Shown here: positions 9,773-48,216 of the stretch, piece after piece
Position numbering within the stretch: the first letter of the stretch is position 1
Layout: each line of letters begins with the position of its first letter
Virus record (IMG/VR): IMGVR_UViG_3300046804_002179
Location: 1 to 50,467 of that record
DNA length: 50,467 bases
Direction: 5' to 3' (one strand)
Source of the DNA: a virus
Notes under the pieces: generated by a model
Seen by the model: only the letters and a program-made list of their open reading frames with translations
What the model was told of the DNA's origin: nothing
Database searches by the model: none
Made by a program: the position numbers and the translations under genes

Positions 9773-10750
9773 ATGAACCTCACGATCTCATACATTACCA
9801 ATCGTCTTGAACCCAAGATCGAATGGTTTTTTGGATCCTTAGCAAAACAGGGTGGAACAGACATAGATGTCAATGTCATCGACTTCCATGCAGACGATGA
9901 GGAACGAGCCAAGAAGGTGGCGCGTCTAGCCGACCATTATGGTGTTAAACTCAACCGACACATCACTCCTAAGCCGACTGTGTGGCAAGGAAAGCATCGT
10001 CTAACCAAGGCAGATTACTTTGCTGCATCCAACGCATCAAACACTGCCATAGCGATTTGCAAGACCGATTGGATCGTATTTGTGGACGATCTCAGTGTGT
10101 TGAGGCCGGCTTGGCTGCAATCAGTCAAGGAGGCCATTCAAAGAGGCGGCATCACATGTGGTGGCTATAGGAAGGTGCTTGAGCTTGAAGTCGAAAATGG
10201 AGAGGTGACTCACCACAAAGAGCACCCACTTGGAATTGATGCTAGGGAAAGGCAAGTGGGATCAGGAGCTGTTGTCCCGTGTGGAGGAGAATGGTTCTTT
10301 GGATGCAGCTTTGTGGCTCCGATTGAGGCTCTTCTGAAGATCAACGGATTTGATGAGGACTGCGATGGAATGGGAATGCAGGACTGTGTTGCCGGTCTGA
10401 TGCTAAGGGCCAATGGATACTCATTCGTCTACGACAATCGAATGATGACTTGGGAATCCGAGGAACTTCATGGTCAGCCAGGGAATGTGTTCTACAGAGA
10501 AGACTGGGGTGTTTCACCAAACGACAAATCTCACGCCATACTAAATCTGGTATACGCCGGCAGAACCAAGGCTCCCAACTATTTTGGTCCAAATGGTTTA
10601 CGTGGACTTAGAAACAGGATGGTGAACACTTTAGATTTTCCACCTGTATCTGTGCCGCAGCACGAATGGTTCTCTGGAACCCCACTAAGCCAACTGCCAC
10701 TTACTTTGAAGGATCCAACTCATGGAGCCTTTGAAAGAAACCTAAAATGA
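9773..10750 (+). CDS. Family 2 (GT-A) glycosyltransferase
   Basis: A 325-residue GT-A enzyme that would move a sugar from a nucleotide-sugar donor. The nucleotide/metal motif is DWIVFVDD (99-106, D105-D106). The acceptor side has the usual GCSFVAPIEALLKINGFDE (177-195), followed by GMGMQD (199-204), which carries the catalytic Asp. The first 60 residues form the Rossmann-like half. It is followed without gap by a methyltransferase and a glycosidase-like propeller, all overlapping by 4 bp, so the three probably act on one glycan. Possible targets are virion proteins, phage DNA or the host surface. Family membership is clear; donor and acceptor are not. Confidence 0.8.
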   Translation: MNLTISYITNRLEPKIEWFFGSLAKQGGTDIDVNVIDFHADDEERAKKVARLADHYGVKLNRHITPKPTVWQGKHRLTKADYFAASNASNTAIAICKTDWIVFVDDLSVLRPAWLQSVKEAIQRGGITCGGYRKVLELEVENGEVTHHKEHPLGIDARERQVGSGAVVPCGGEWFFGCSFVAPIEALLKINGFDEDCDGMGMQDCVAGLMLRANGYSFVYDNRMMTWESEELHGQPGNVFYREDWGVSPNDKSHAILNLVYAGRTKAPNYFGPNGLRGLRNRMVNTLDFPPVSVPQHEWFSGTPLSQLPLTLKDPTHGAFERNLK

Positions 10751-11358
10751 ACGAAATAGATAAAGCCACACTTGAGAAGATCGAGACGCCGCCCATGGAG
10801 GGTTGGTGTACTGTCCAAAAAGCCAGCGACTTGTTTGAAATCGTTGAGAATTACAAGCCTAAGACCTGCCTTGAGATCGGAACCTTTGGAGGTCGATCCA
10901 TGGTGGCCATCAGTCTAGCCCTGAAAAAGCTTGGTCGAGGCATCGTGTTTGGAATCGACCCTTGGAAGGTTGAAGCGTGCCTTGAGGGAACCAATCCAGA
11001 CGCCAACAACCAGTGGTGGGCCAGCGTGCCGTGGAACAAGATCATTGCCTCCTACTTCGACAAGCTACAGGAGTTCGATGTGTTGGGATATGTATCTCAT
11101 TTCCGGAAACACGATACAGAATGCCTTGGTTACTTTACCAAAAGTTCCATTGATCTGATCCATTTCGATAGCAACCACAGCCAAGAAGTAGCGTGTCGCA
11201 CTGTTAAAGATTGGTGGCCTAAACTTAAACAAGGCGCAGTCGTCATCATGGACGACATCGATTGGAGCGGCCAAAACAAAGCTCTCGAACTGATGAAAGA
11301 GCTTGGTATCGAGACGGTTAAGGAAGAAAAGACTTACGGTATCTACCTAAAAAAATGA
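10747..11358 (+). CDS. SAM-dependent methyltransferase (class I)
   Basis: A 203-residue class I methyltransferase. The SAM-binding motif is LEIGTFGGRS (42-51), the acidic ribose-binding motif GIDPW (69-73), and the post-II region DLIHFDSNHS (136-145), as in the Methyltransf_24 group that often acts on sugars or small molecules. It lies between the glycosyltransferase and the propeller enzyme (ATGA overlaps on both sides), so sugar O-methylation is the likely reaction. There is no DNA target-recognition domain. Confidence 0.8.
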   Translation: MNEIDKATLEKIETPPMEGWCTVQKASDLFEIVENYKPKTCLEIGTFGGRSMVAISLALKKLGRGIVFGIDPWKVEACLEGTNPDANNQWWASVPWNKIIASYFDKLQEFDVLGYVSHFRKHDTECLGYFTKSSIDLIHFDSNHSQEVACRTVKDWWPKLKQGAVVIMDDIDWSGQNKALELMKELGIETVKEEKTYGIYLKK

Positions 11359-12284
11359 CTCCATCCATCAAGGACCAGACTCCTTGGGACGTGGGGTTTT
11401 ACGATTTCGGAAGGGCGCTTGTACCTGGTACGAGATTCTTCAATCCCAGCCTCATCGTTCACAACGGAGCTAATTGGCTGCTGGCCCGAAGGTCAGGCAA
11501 GGTTGACTGGCATCACCTTGGTCAAAACAGCATCGTCGCATTCAAGCTCGACGAGAATCATAAGCCAGAAGGCTTCATTGACGTGGTGCTTCTCAATAGA
11601 AGTTACAAGGACCAGCACTGGGAAGATCCTCGTATTGTCTGGATCAACGGACAGATGGTCTTGTCCTACTGCACATTCCAGATCTACAAGACCAGAACCT
11701 ACAGCGGAGCCCACCAACAGGTCGCATTCCTAAACGACTCATTTCAGGCTCTCAACGTTTGGGACCCAGTCTATGGGAAAAATGGCGGATCCATCTTGAT
11801 GAACGAAGGCAACGAGAAGAACTGGATCTTCTTTGAGCACGACGGCCAGATGATGATGATCTACAACACGGAGCCGCATGAAGTGGTCAGGTGGGAAAAT
11901 CAACAAGTGGTAGAGAAATGGGAGACTCCGGCATTTGGCTGGAAGTGGGGCCACATGAGGGGCGGAAGTCCTCCGATCAGAGTGGGTGACGAGTACGTCT
12001 GTTTCTTCCATAGCTCAACACCATGGACCGAGAAGAAACGTCAATACCATATGGGGGCATACGCCTTCGAGGCCAAGCCGCCATTCAAAATGACGCGGAT
12101 GACACGAAAGCCACTGTTGTCCGGCAGCCAGAAGGACCCTTGGATCGAAGGACTACCATTGGTGGTGTTCCCGTGCGGAGCCATCTTGAATAGCAAAAAA
12201 TATGTTGTCAGCATGGGTATCAACGACTACACATCCGCGTGGATTGAGATCCCCGTAAAGGGCCTTAATTCACTAATGAAATGA
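11355..12284 (+). CDS. Five-bladed beta-propeller glycosidase/phosphorylase-like protein
   Basis: A 309-residue protein with the repeated strand pattern of the five-bladed propeller seen in GH43, GH32/68 and GH130. Characteristic elements are FFNPSLIV near residue 28, HWEDPRIVW near 93, a central HMRGGSPPI near 198 and a late FPCGAILNSKKYVVSMGIND. The RGG-PP block and overall order are most like GH130-type mannoside phosphorylases. Some members of this fold in glycan gene clusters make rather than break linkages. In this operon it could trim or extend the sugar added by the upstream glycosyltransferase. The exact reaction is unknown. Confidence 0.65.
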   Translation: MTPSIKDQTPWDVGFYDFGRALVPGTRFFNPSLIVHNGANWLLARRSGKVDWHHLGQNSIVAFKLDENHKPEGFIDVVLLNRSYKDQHWEDPRIVWINGQMVLSYCTFQIYKTRTYSGAHQQVAFLNDSFQALNVWDPVYGKNGGSILMNEGNEKNWIFFEHDGQMMMIYNTEPHEVVRWENQQVVEKWETPAFGWKWGHMRGGSPPIRVGDEYVCFFHSSTPWTEKKRQYHMGAYAFEAKPPFKMTRMTRKPLLSGSQKDPWIEGLPLVVFPCGAILNSKKYVVSMGINDYTSAWIEIPVKGLNSLMK

Positions 12285-43382: not shown

Positions 43383-43814
43383 CTACGGTCTCTCAACAAA
43401 TCGTTTAAGATCTGCTGGAGAATAACTTGGGGACTTGATCACCTTGCCTTCGCGCTTGGCGATCCATCGATCGAACCTAGGAGTCCATTCCAGGTCGCCA
43501 TCCTTGTAAGCGTTTTTCTCGGCCTGCGTCCAGAGCTTGCTCATGTTCGATCGGTGAACCTCGAGGAAGGCAGCCTCTACGAGGACCGCATTCAGGCCGG
43601 CTGCATTGGCGGCACCGTAGACAACATAGAGAAGGTCGCAGATGGCGTCCAGGTAATCCACCAAGGACTCTGAGAACAGCAGTTCATCGGCCTCTTCCTT
43701 GATAAGGTCGTACCGAAAGGTGATCGTGCGAGAAGGTGGAAGGGTGGGTTCTTTGGGGAACTCCTGGCCAAACGCCTCCATGAACTTGCCCACTAGGTTT
43801 TGCTTGATGGTCAT
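43383..43814 (-). CDS. MazG/PRA-PH-like NTP pyrophosphohydrolase
   Basis: A 143-residue all-helical protein. The EExxE...D motif is visible: RYDLIKEEADEL (34-45) supplies the first Glu pair, and DAICDLLYVVYGAANAAGL (56-74) holds the ExxD counterpart. The end FLEVHRSNMSKL is as in phosphoribosyl-ATP pyrophosphohydrolase-like MazG proteins. Such enzymes remove NTPs or (p)ppGpp-like nucleotides and are carried by many phages to keep the host in a productive state. The substrate is not known. It overlaps the HTH gene by 4 bp. Confidence 0.75.
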   Translation of the reverse strand: MTIKQNLVGKFMEAFGQEFPKEPTLPPSRTITFRYDLIKEEADELLFSESLVDYLDAICDLLYVVYGAANAAGLNAVLVEAAFLEVHRSNMSKLWTQAEKNAYKDGDLEWTPRFDRWIAKREGKVIKSPSYSPADLKRFVERP

Positions 43815-44071
43815 TTGATGAGGGTTTGTTCTGCAAGGATTCGGTTGACGGTGGCAGTAGTAATGCGGAGCTCACGAGCGATCTGTAGAGAAGTCATGCC
43901 AGTGCATTTGAGCTTCAGGATGGATCGTTTCAGGACCGGCGCCGATTCAGGTGCTGCCGAGGAGACAACCTTCGGCGGTGTGATACGTGGTGGAGTCCTA
44001 GGTGCGCGGCCAAAGTAGGCGATCACCTGGTCTCTTGTCAACCCTATATTTGCAAGCGTTGGATCAGTCAT
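43811..44071 (-). CDS. HTH protein, 86 aa
   Basis: An 86-residue protein. Residues 57-80 hold a helix-turn-helix (GMTSLQIARELRITTATVNR) of resolvase/LuxR-like type. The N-terminal half has a Pro-rich linker (RAPRTPPRITPPKVVSS). It is likely a transcription regulator of the leftward set, or a DNA-binding partner of the neighbouring MazG-like gene. No family more specific than HTH can be given. Confidence 0.65.
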   Translation of the reverse strand: MTDPTLANIGLTRDQVIAYFGRAPRTPPRITPPKVVSSAAPESAPVLKRSILKLKCTGMTSLQIARELRITTATVNRILAEQTLIK

Positions 44072-44096: not shown

Positions 44097-44570
44097 TTAC
44101 GCGTAAATCGCTGGTTCCTGAGTCTTTTCAGCGAATTGGTTCAGGAGTCTAGCGCACTCTTTGTCGCACCATTCGTTGCCAGGATGGTCGTTGTGACCTT
44201 TGACCCATTCTGTCGTGACGGTCCTGGCTGAAACGAGGGATCGAACCTCTTCCAACAAAGACTTATCCATCGAAGTATTTTTGTACCAGGTGCCTTTGTT
44301 GAATCGCTCGATCCAGTTGATAAGGATCATTGAATCGGAAACCACCAGCACTTCGTCACCTTCAGGAACTAAAGAAAGGCCAGCGATTACAGCCAAAAAC
44401 TCAGTCTTGTTGTTCGTTACAGGTAGGCCATTGACCTGTTGCACGGCGCCGGATCGCGCGATTTTCTTTGGCCCTGTTAAATAGAATGCCCAAGAACCTA
44501 TGGCATTAGGTTTACCATTGTATAGGCATCCTCCGTCAGTAGTTAGTATCCAGTTGTTGTTAGTAGTCAT
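44097..44570 (-). CDS. rnhA: RNase HI
   Basis: A 157-residue RNase HI that cuts RNA in RNA:DNA hybrids, used for primer removal. The catalytic set is D12 (TTDGG), E57 (TNNKTEFLAVIAGL), D79 (VVSDSM), H126 (KGHNDHPGN) and D136 (WCDKEC), with spacing like E. coli RNase HI (D10, E48, D70, H124, D134). It lies directly downstream of the 650-bp structured region on the same strand. Presence of a phage RNase H without its own polymerase is notable. No Shine-Dalgarno sequence precedes ATG 44570. Confidence 0.88.
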   Translation of the reverse strand: MTTNNNWILTTDGGCLYNGKPNAIGSWAFYLTGPKKIARSGAVQQVNGLPVTNNKTEFLAVIAGLSLVPEGDEVLVVSDSMILINWIERFNKGTWYKNTSMDKSLLEEVRSLVSARTVTTEWVKGHNDHPGNEWCDKECARLLNQFAEKTQEPAIYA

Positions 44571-44599
44571 GCTTTAGCAGTATGTTGAAGTAGCTTCTT

Positions 44600-45245
44600 T
44601 AGCCTTCTTCCAGTTCTCTTACCGCCCTAGAAGCGGGCACCCACAGGTACGCGGCTGCCATACAGCAAGAGAATGCTATATCTTCACCAGGGCGGCCCAG
44701 ATGGGAAATTCCTCGGTGTCATTACGGGGTGTCCCCGCTCGCGACGCCATCGGACCGCCGAGCTCTTTGCCATGTGACTGGTGAGGCTGTTTGCGAACTA
44801 ACAACAAACGAATCTGCGGTATACCATCCCCCATATCGGTCGGGATCAACCGGCTTTCGCGTTATGAACATCGTGACGGGCTCGACAACCTATTTCCTCC
44901 CTTAGCCTGCTCTAGACAGGCAAACCGATGTCCGCTGCTGGCTTGCGCCATAGGATTTGGACCGTCCCAACGGGTCCCAAGGTTTCCCTCGGGGTCGAGT
45001 CAGCAAGGTGGGCAGCAATCCCACATTGCCTAGAATACTAACAACCAGTCTGGCAAAGAACCTATGTCTTTCCGCGACGGAGCACATCCGCCATCTGCGA
45101 GAAAATGGAAAAAGGGTAGGGTGGCGCCCCGTTAAGGCCCGAAGGCACAGGCGTGCTGATCGGTTCGGACGACAGGCCACCTCTGCCGCCCGCATGGAGC
45201 AAAATCCTTGAGTGAAATTGGCAAGCCTTTATTGCCATGCGTGTA
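44600..45245 (-). ncRNA. Putative large structured noncoding RNA (about 650 nt)
   Basis: No credible ORF exists in either strand between the DnaA-like and RNase HI genes. Many nested stems are present: CCGCCCT (44622-44628) with AGGGCGG (44689-44695), CGGGG/CCCCG (44725-44737), CTCGG/CCGAG (near 44712 and 44757), GTTTG/CAAAC (44789-44809), CTCGAC (44881-44886) with GTCGAG (44994-44999), GCCTG/CAGGC (44905-44921), a hairpin at 44957-44980, GCAA.GTGGG/CCCAC.TTGC (45003-45029), GGTGGC/GCCACC (45120-45181) and GCATGG/CCATGC (45192-45240). The strand is suggested by the stem at 44660-44681: on the minus strand all 8 pairs form with one G-U, on plus one is C-A. A UUCG-capped GCC/GGC stem on the minus strand agrees. 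It is not tmRNA, RNase P RNA or rRNA by signature. Size and phage setting recall GOLLD or ROOL RNAs, but no match can be claimed. Confidence 0.6.
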
Positions 45246-45248
45246 GGA

Positions 45249-45554
45249 TTAAGCGACCCGAGACCTTTTGTCAAGTCTCCGGCACAACTTTTCCCGAAGA
45301 TTTTCCACGACCACCCGGACCTTAGGATTGGTCTGACAGGCTTCATCGACCTTGCGGACGGCGTGGACGCACATTGAACGGTGGCGCCTGAAATAACGCG
45401 CGACCACAATTGACGAGGCAAACGGGTGGGATTCCAGGCACAGGACCATTGCGACGTGCCGCGCCAGAGCTAGAGGATACCAGCGTTGATTCCCCATCAG
45501 CTGGCCTTCCGTTACGCCAAAGACTTTGGCCACCTCCTGAATGACGATCTTCAT
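45249..45554 (-). CDS. Stand-alone DnaA domain IV-like protein
   Basis: A 101-residue protein closely resembling only the C-terminal DNA-binding domain of the bacterial initiator DnaA. Matches in order are VIQEVAKVFGVTEGQL (4-19), R24 in GNQRW, ALARHVAMVLCLESHPFASS (29-48), and the signature-loop region RRHRSMCVHAVRKVDEA (56-72), which aligns with RDHxTVxHAxxKI of DnaA. The AAA+ and N-terminal domains are absent. DnaA domain IV binds 9-mer DnaA boxes. The phage protein could bind boxes on the phage genome to recruit host helicase-loading factors, or occupy host oriC and block initiation. It lies right before the structured RNA and overlaps its upstream gene by 4 bp. Confidence 0.75.
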   Translation of the reverse strand: MKIVIQEVAKVFGVTEGQLMGNQRWYPLALARHVAMVLCLESHPFASSIVVARYFRRHRSMCVHAVRKVDEACQTNPKVRVVVENLREKLCRRLDKRSRVA

Positions 45555-46254: not shown

Positions 46255-46274
46255 GGGGAATTGGGCGCGGGGGA

Positions 46275-46529
46275 TTAATCGACGAAAACGTGGGCCCAGG
46301 ATCCGTCTGGAAGTTCCCCGGAAACGAATGGTTTGTTCCAGTAGAAACCGTCCGGACGTTCAGCCCGTAGCTTTGCCAAGAGAGTCTCAACGGCCTCCCG
46401 ATGGCAATTCCCTCCCGTTGAATCGTAAGGGTAAGGAATCACGACGGAATCTCTGTCGAGGGTGGCTTTGATCCTGGAACCACGGGTGTTCGTGGCAGCG
46501 AGGTATTTGGTGTGGATAGAATAATACAT
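46275..46529 (-). CDS. Conserved small phage protein, 84 aa
   Basis: An 84-residue beta-rich protein (YSIHTKYLAATNTRGSRIKA...). The start MYYSIHTKYLAATNTRGSRI and the end SGELPDGSWAHVFVD recur in many phage hypothetical proteins. The same end, with a DGSW-H-F pattern, is seen in the protein at 48334, so they are distant paralogues. Function unknown. Confidence 0.6.
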   Translation of the reverse strand: MYYSIHTKYLAATNTRGSRIKATLDRDSVVIPYPYDSTGGNCHREAVETLLAKLRAERPDGFYWNKPFVSGELPDGSWAHVFVD

Positions 46530-46561
46530 GGGAGTGAGCGTAGAATTGAGCGCGGTGGATT

Positions 46562-47514: not shown

Positions 47515-48216
47515 TTACTTGGAAGCGCATGCAACGGAGGCAACTTTCTTATGCCCAGCACCGTGAGGGATAAAACCCACGATGAACCCACGGTCCGCCT
47601 TTGAGCACAGTCTGCATTTATCGCATGTCATTCCCTCAACTCGTTGAGCCGGGCAAACTACCACCTTGTTACCACCTGGGGTGACGAAACGAGCCGGGGA
47701 ACCAGGGGGAACAACCGTGGCCACGGGCATTCCTGTCTCGGCAAGCCTGTCTGCGTGCTCAACGTTGTTCCCGGACAGATTGATTGTGAAACCCTTGGAA
47801 ATTGCTTCCCCGATGGCTTTCCGGTTGGAATTGACGACAGAAGCGGGAACGGAATCCGTGGCCACGACAGGCTTATGGGTATACGTGAAACCGCGTTTCC
47901 CCTGTGATGCCAGGGCAAGCGCCAGTAGTTTGACCTTGTCGACACGGTTCCCGGCGCCAGGTAAATCCCCAGCCTGGTTGTGGCGCCACAACTGGTTTTC
48001 CGGGAGAAGCCGGACCCGAGAAAGGAATTCCCGGAATCCGTCGCCACGTTTCCCGGACGATACAGCACCCCAGTGAAACCTAAGCGGTCCGGCGTCCGCA
48101 TAGCATCCGGAACCACGAAACGGGCACACTAGGGGGCACGTTGAATCCGGCGACGTTGAGACTGGAATGGGTCCGGTCTTTGGATTGGTTGAGACGGGAG
48201 AAAGGTGGACATTCAT
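47515..48216 (-). CDS. Cysteine-rich conserved phage protein (DUF7227-like)
   Basis: A 233-residue protein with a clear conserved pattern: KTGPIPVSTSP (13-23), STCPLVCPFRGSGCYADAGP (25-44), LPENQLWRHNQAGDLPG (70-86), GFTYTHKPV (109-117), and a late Cys cluster CDKCRLCSK (207-215). Several Cys and His can bind zinc or an iron-sulfur cluster. Proteins with this pattern are widespread in phages and, from memory, belong to DUF7227; some are discussed as radical-SAM-like, but the CxxxCxxC motif is not intact here. Function is unknown. It is the largest gene of the leftward early block. Confidence 0.65.
   Translation of the reverse strand: MNVHLSPVSTNPKTGPIPVSTSPDSTCPLVCPFRGSGCYADAGPLRFHWGAVSSGKRGDGFREFLSRVRLLPENQLWRHNQAGDLPGAGNRVDKVKLLALALASQGKRGFTYTHKPVVATDSVPASVVNSNRKAIGEAISKGFTINLSGNNVEHADRLAETGMPVATVVPPGSPARFVTPGGNKVVVCPAQRVEGMTCDKCRLCSKADRGFIVGFIPHGAGHKKVASVACASK

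Follow-up and report, generated by a model that had tools for sequence, protein, structure and literature searches.

A candidate modular structured RNA with a covarying 5' domain and an exchangeable body in a phage early operon

A noncoding gap between a DnaA-like gene and RNase HI

The DNA analyzed here is an IMG/VR virus record, and the window denotes this whole stretch of 50,467 bases. Rightward genes occupy the part up to about 40.6 kb. The early operon runs leftward, from about 50.4 to 40.8 kb. Within this operon lies a 678-bp gap (positions 44571 to 45248), with a DnaA-like ORF on one side and RNase HI on the other. The genes at this locus are as follows.

45249-45554, minus strand: upstream gene, DnaA domain IV-like protein of 101 aa (Pfam Bac_DnaA_C, 7e-12)
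44097-44570, minus strand: downstream gene, RNase HI of 157 aa (Pfam RNase_H, 2.9e-20)
43811-44071, minus strand: HTH gene, where the window and its relatives regain collinearity (locus comparison)

The Pfam match at 45249-45554 covers domain IV only, not the whole of DnaA. Overall identity of this stand-alone domain IV protein to its relatives is 62 and 50%, with a very divergent C-terminal half. Elsewhere in the window, the rightward (structural) half encodes a domain of GT family 2 and one of the glycoside phosphorylase family GH130 (9773-12284), and a DUF7227/phrog_2554 protein is encoded in the early operon (47515-48216). In a scan of genome contigs, only Pelagibacteraceae genomes carried a protein related to the MazG-like one (41-42% identity).

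An earlier note on this DNA had described about 650 bp without a credible ORF between the two flanking genes. This was borne out by the coding score, which was negative in all six frames of the gap. The largest ORF (97 aa, 44902-45195, minus strand) scored -0.228, and values of +0.03 to +0.12 were obtained for the RNase HI, HTH, MazG-like, and 45551 genes. It should be noted that this test is weak alone, since the genuine DnaA-like gene also scored negative (-0.083). In two of the related phages introduced below, the ATG start of the 97-aa ORF reads ACG. Codon-level conservation of an ORF, which the same note had named as a finding that would speak against an RNA, was looked for, and frame-breaking indels among the relatives were found instead; indels of 2 nt and 1 nt disrupt any reading frame of the 5' domain. 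A coding role for this domain was considered and rejected: a comparable peptide is readable in each of the four phages, but the indels fall mid-peptide and shift the frame. ARAGORN detected no tRNA in the window, and no tmRNA was detected there either. The span originally proposed, 44600-45245, nearly fits; the conserved RNA, however, starts at 45250, at the stop codon of the DnaA-like gene.

A constant 5' domain shared by four phages

Relatives were found via the DnaA-like protein, a DNA pattern built on the element they share, and the downstream HTH protein. Four IMG/VR phages carry the 5' domain, namely, the window and three relatives (L002/L042/L084, L058/L085, and L083/L088). A 597-aa protein read rightward is 98-99% identical among them, and their early region is mosaic. 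In the 0.8 Mb of loci searched, a covariance model of the 137-nt element matched these four phages only, and the phage and plasmid nucleotide collections returned only short chance matches. The sample comprises four sequences in two closely related pairs, among which independent covariation events are few. In several phage pairs, identity is about 35-60% in the 3' half of the DnaA-like gene, compared with about 77-95% in the adjoining 5' domain. The elements of this domain are listed below.

45114-45250, minus strand: constant 5' domain of 137 nt, common to the four phages (77-94% identity, frame-breaking indels, covariation)
45220-45236, minus strand: hairpin P1 (45236-45232 with 45224-45220), stem invariant
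45231-45225, minus strand: 7-nt loop of P1, the 5' strand of pseudoknot PK1, pairing with a strand about 90 nt downstream
45133-45138, minus strand: 3' strand of PK1, pairing with the P1 loop, four pairs changed on both sides
45166-45192, minus strand: hairpin P4, 10 bp (45192-45183 with 45175-45166) with a 7-nt loop, three pairs changed on both sides
45120-45125, minus strand: proposed PK2 strand GCCACC, complementary to the P4 loop GGUGGC (45181-45176), perfect 6 bp
45139-45163, minus strand: hairpin P3/P6 (45163-45160 with 45142-45139; 45156-45153 with 45148-45145), one pair changed on both sides
45126-45200, minus strand: helix P5 (45200-45196 with 45130-45126), predicted, invariant

The hairpin set was returned by RNAalifold on all four sequences, and the downstream pairing of the P1 loop by RNAalifold on the three relatives. 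Helix P5 is predicted to enclose P4, P3/P6, and the PK1 strand. PK1 has five contiguous pairs in the window and six or more in the relatives. Its loop and strand read TAAAGGC/GCCTTAA, TTAAGGC/GCCTTAA, CTAGAAC/GTTCTAA, and CTGAAAC/GTTTCAT in the four phages, representing three distinct loop types with a matched partner strand in each.

In the leftward reading, 139 of 140 cells pair when the pseudoknot is counted, and eight pairs are changed on both sides. The covariation score was 0.276 compared with 0.141 after shuffling, and none of the 500 shuffles was as high. Among all helices of 5 bp or more that could form, PK1 was the most compensated (four pairs), followed by P4 (three pairs). Column shuffling (n = 300) never reached four compensated pairs, and three shuffles reached a maximum of three. 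Covariation above background in homologues, on which the RNA proposal had been made to depend, is thus present, in the 5' domain. On the plus strand, the same pairs are formed in 123 of 140 cells, a comparison that is somewhat biased, the structure having been derived on the leftward strand; an independent fold of the plus strand contained a single compensated pair. The proposed preference for leftward reading agrees with these counts and with a G-U stem in the body described below. That the 5' 137 nt form a structured noncoding RNA read leftward is supported by compensatory changes in four phages. A second pseudoknot, PK2, probably forms in this domain as well. Its GCCACC strand lies just after helix P5, and the pairing is invariant in all four phages.

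Folding energy and the stems first noticed

The leftward RNA folds with -259.7 kcal/mol (z = -2.25; 1 of 100 shuffles was as low), and the opposite strand of the gap gave a z of -1.48. Because the coding neighbor, the DnaA-like gene, scores as low (z = -2.50), fold energy is weak evidence and no proof of an RNA, and its use as such was abandoned. Covariation, not energy, lifts the structured RNA above chance.

The stems that the earlier note had pointed out exist and are mostly real, although not every one is part of the minimum-energy fold. The pairing of 44622-44628 with 44689-44695 is present in that fold, whereas 44881-44886 and 44994-44999 are perfectly complementary but are absent from it. 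As described, the hairpin at 44660-44681 has G-U when read on the minus strand, where the plus strand has C-A. The claim of a structured leftward RNA over the entire gap therefore stands for the 5' 137 nt by covariation; for the remaining 520 nt, it is folding and position, not covariation, that modestly suggest a structure.

An exchangeable body and changing downstream genes

In the window, the 5' domain is followed by a body of 520 nt and then by RNase HI. The body has the following features.

44603-45115, minus strand: variable body of the window's RNA, without a relative by blastn or nhmmer (z = -2.08)
45115-45106 with 44612-44603, minus strand: possible closing helix of the body, 10 bp (shuffle test)
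45060-45044 with 44782-44764, minus strand: long-range helix of 9 + 6 bp, from the minimum-energy fold only
44797-44807, minus strand: 11-nt stretch complementary to RNase HI codons 2-6 (shuffle test)
45036-45045, minus strand: second, 10-nt stretch complementary to RNase HI (shuffle test)

In the collections searched, the absence of blastn and nhmmer relatives extends to the three related phages, whose body is unlike that of the window. L002, L083, and L058 share an alternative, unrelated, and conserved body of about 330 nt. Of two viral pattern scans covering both bodies, checked with blastn and nhmmer, one gave known relatives only and the other nothing but chance matches. The alternative body precedes a 132-aa ORF without a Pfam match in L002 and L083 and only a remnant of this ORF in L058; the ORF is absent from the window. 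RNase HI, in turn, is absent from the records of all three relatives, and the placement next to this gene, which had been called distinctive, is not constant. The window and the relatives are collinear again just before the HTH gene, so that the body is swapped between fixed flanking genes. The two copies of the 132-aa ORF (L002 5712-6110 and L083 4207-4605) are 99% identical, though the flanks of both phages differ more. L058 and L083 have almost the same alternative body over a stretch of about 180 nt, whereas they differ by about 22% in the 5' domain and by more at the 3' end of the body. This sameness suggests constraint; a recent exchange could also account for it.

When one side or the other was shuffled 500 times, the possible closing helix of the window's body, which was chosen post hoc, outperformed 497 and 477 of the shuffles, respectively. 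For the relatives' body, a conserved closing helix was considered and discarded, since, unlike the window's, it did not exceed shuffles. With no relative found and a fold energy that is only modestly low (z = -2.08), the window's body might be remnant DNA, a meaningless replacement that follows a genuine short RNA element of about 140 nt. We consider this improbable: long-range helices are kept (9 + 6 bp; closing helix, 3 of 500 shuffles), and a long noncoding stretch is found at the same place in all relatives too.

Since the RNA lies inside the operon, the main rival to an independent RNA is a cis-acting leader that controls transcription or translation of the RNase HI, HTH, and MazG-like genes, in which the 5' pseudoknot would serve as a sensor or bind the polymerase and the body would give the output. 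Such a leader would share one operon with a closely spaced downstream gene, as is the case here, and the two sites complementary to RNase HI codons 2-6 occurred together in none of 300 shuffles. That complementarity, however, was a post hoc find and is not part of the minimum-energy fold. Moreover, the next gene varies (RNase HI, the 132-aa ORF, or the HTH gene directly) while the 5' domain is constant, and an expression platform of more than 500 nt would be a long one. We therefore hold the leader to be unlikely, though it is the alternative to be taken most seriously.

ColE1 RNA II is an R-loop transcript that is trimmed by RNase HI and whose 3' end primes DNA synthesis. The RNA described here would likewise be a long structured transcript beside replication-type functions and RNase HI, and it could be a replication primer or origin element of this kind, with the DnaA-like protein aiding replisome loading. 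A DnaA domain IV protein and RNase HI as neighbors, a size resembling that of RNA II, and the G tracts and purine-rich stretch in which the relatives' body ends would all be in keeping with this. The idea is weakened by the lack of RNase HI in the records of the three relatives and of a GC-skew turn at the RNA locus. Equally strong purine runs occur elsewhere in these loci, no sign of an origin was found, and no plasmid primer family in Rfam matched; a primer thus appears quite improbable.

Comparison with known RNA families

The covariance-model check suggested beforehand (GOLLD, ROOL, OLE, HEARO, and group I/II introns) was run against Rfam with this region of the window and that of the relatives. 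There was no match at the gathering threshold and nothing credible at E values up to 10 for any family, those named included. The stated absence of known RNA signatures was confirmed in that neither a tRNA, a tmRNA, nor an Rfam family was recognized. Because no Rfam family matches, the RNA may represent a new class.

The large phage RNAs GOLLD and ROOL assemble into cages (PMC12286853). GOLLD combines a constant 3' region with a variable 5' region, and ROOL, whose solved example has 659 nt, forms an RNA-only homo-oligomeric nanocage and has no known protein partner (Rfam; PMC12286853). The resemblance to these RNAs suggested earlier holds for size, phage setting, and the split into constant and variable parts but does not extend to a model match, nearby tRNAs, or the position of the constant end. 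The window's RNA shares with GOLLD a large size, a structured fold, a phage origin, and the division into a constant and a variable region. It is shorter, however, its constant part is at the 5' rather than the 3' end, and the window has no tRNA, whereas GOLLD is often near tRNAs (not an absolute criterion). Like ROOL, it is phage-borne, of similar size, and not known to have a protein partner; it differs in having no nearby tRNAs and in a body that is wholly different between close relatives. Neither covariance model matched, and we file the RNA as a member of neither family.

Loop pseudoknots, the pistol type among them, form when the loop of a hairpin pairs with a strand that sits within the closed loop following it. 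PK1 has the same loop-strand pairing, but its elements are arranged in a different order, and Rfam gave no match. Resemblance to hammerhead and pistol RNAs was considered by eye and discarded. Group I and group II introns were rejected as well, with no match to a catalytic core in Rfam. A ribozyme or a decayed self-splicing intron would suit the compact pseudoknotted fold and the sharp swap boundary after the 5' domain, yet no ribozyme or intron model in Rfam matched even at an E value of 10, and the RNA lies between complete genes, interrupting no ORF. This origin is very improbable.

A motif upstream of early genes

A motif of approximately TTAATCCCCCGCGCCCAATTC was noticed just upstream of many small early genes, on the operon strand in every match here. 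Its sites are 46265-46276 and 46550-46561 (both minus strand) in the window, 1087, 1333, 1620, 2074, 2328, and 2581 in L083, and 3213, 3510, 4092, and 4281 in L002. With up to one mismatch, AATCCNNCGCGC occurs 11 times in L083, compared with 0.7 expected. The 5' end of the RNA (AATCCTACGCGC) is a weaker match to this motif.

Proposed role

We favor, with a probability of roughly 0.5, a modular structured RNA of about 650 nt in the early operon that would accumulate as a stable RNA and act in trans. Read leftward, it would consist of the constant 137-nt 5' pseudoknot domain and an exchangeable body, after which the operon continues. The domain stays constant while the body is exchanged and the next gene changes, which suggests that the selected product is the RNA as such rather than any one gene downstream of it; action in trans is proposed because the body is swapped while the downstream gene changes too. 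Neither a promoter nor a terminator rose above shuffles, and for this reason a discrete transcript is taken as an assumption. The RNA would most likely be cut or initiated at its 5' boundary, and the pseudoknot domain would cap the stable RNA that accumulates. The constant domain would recognize a feature shared by these phages or by their host, and the body a target that varies from phage to phage.

A bolder and doubtful extension is a new class of large phage RNA, in which a constant 5' double-pseudoknot adaptor carries interchangeable bodies; swapping whole bodies at a fixed site, along with companion genes, would change the target, for example, against different host defenses.

Large phage noncoding RNAs are few, and their roles are unknown. 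A short covarying constant domain combined with wholesale exchange of the body between close relatives amounts to a natural domain-swap experiment. The constant part could be probed and solved alone, and the bodies could be compared for binding partners.
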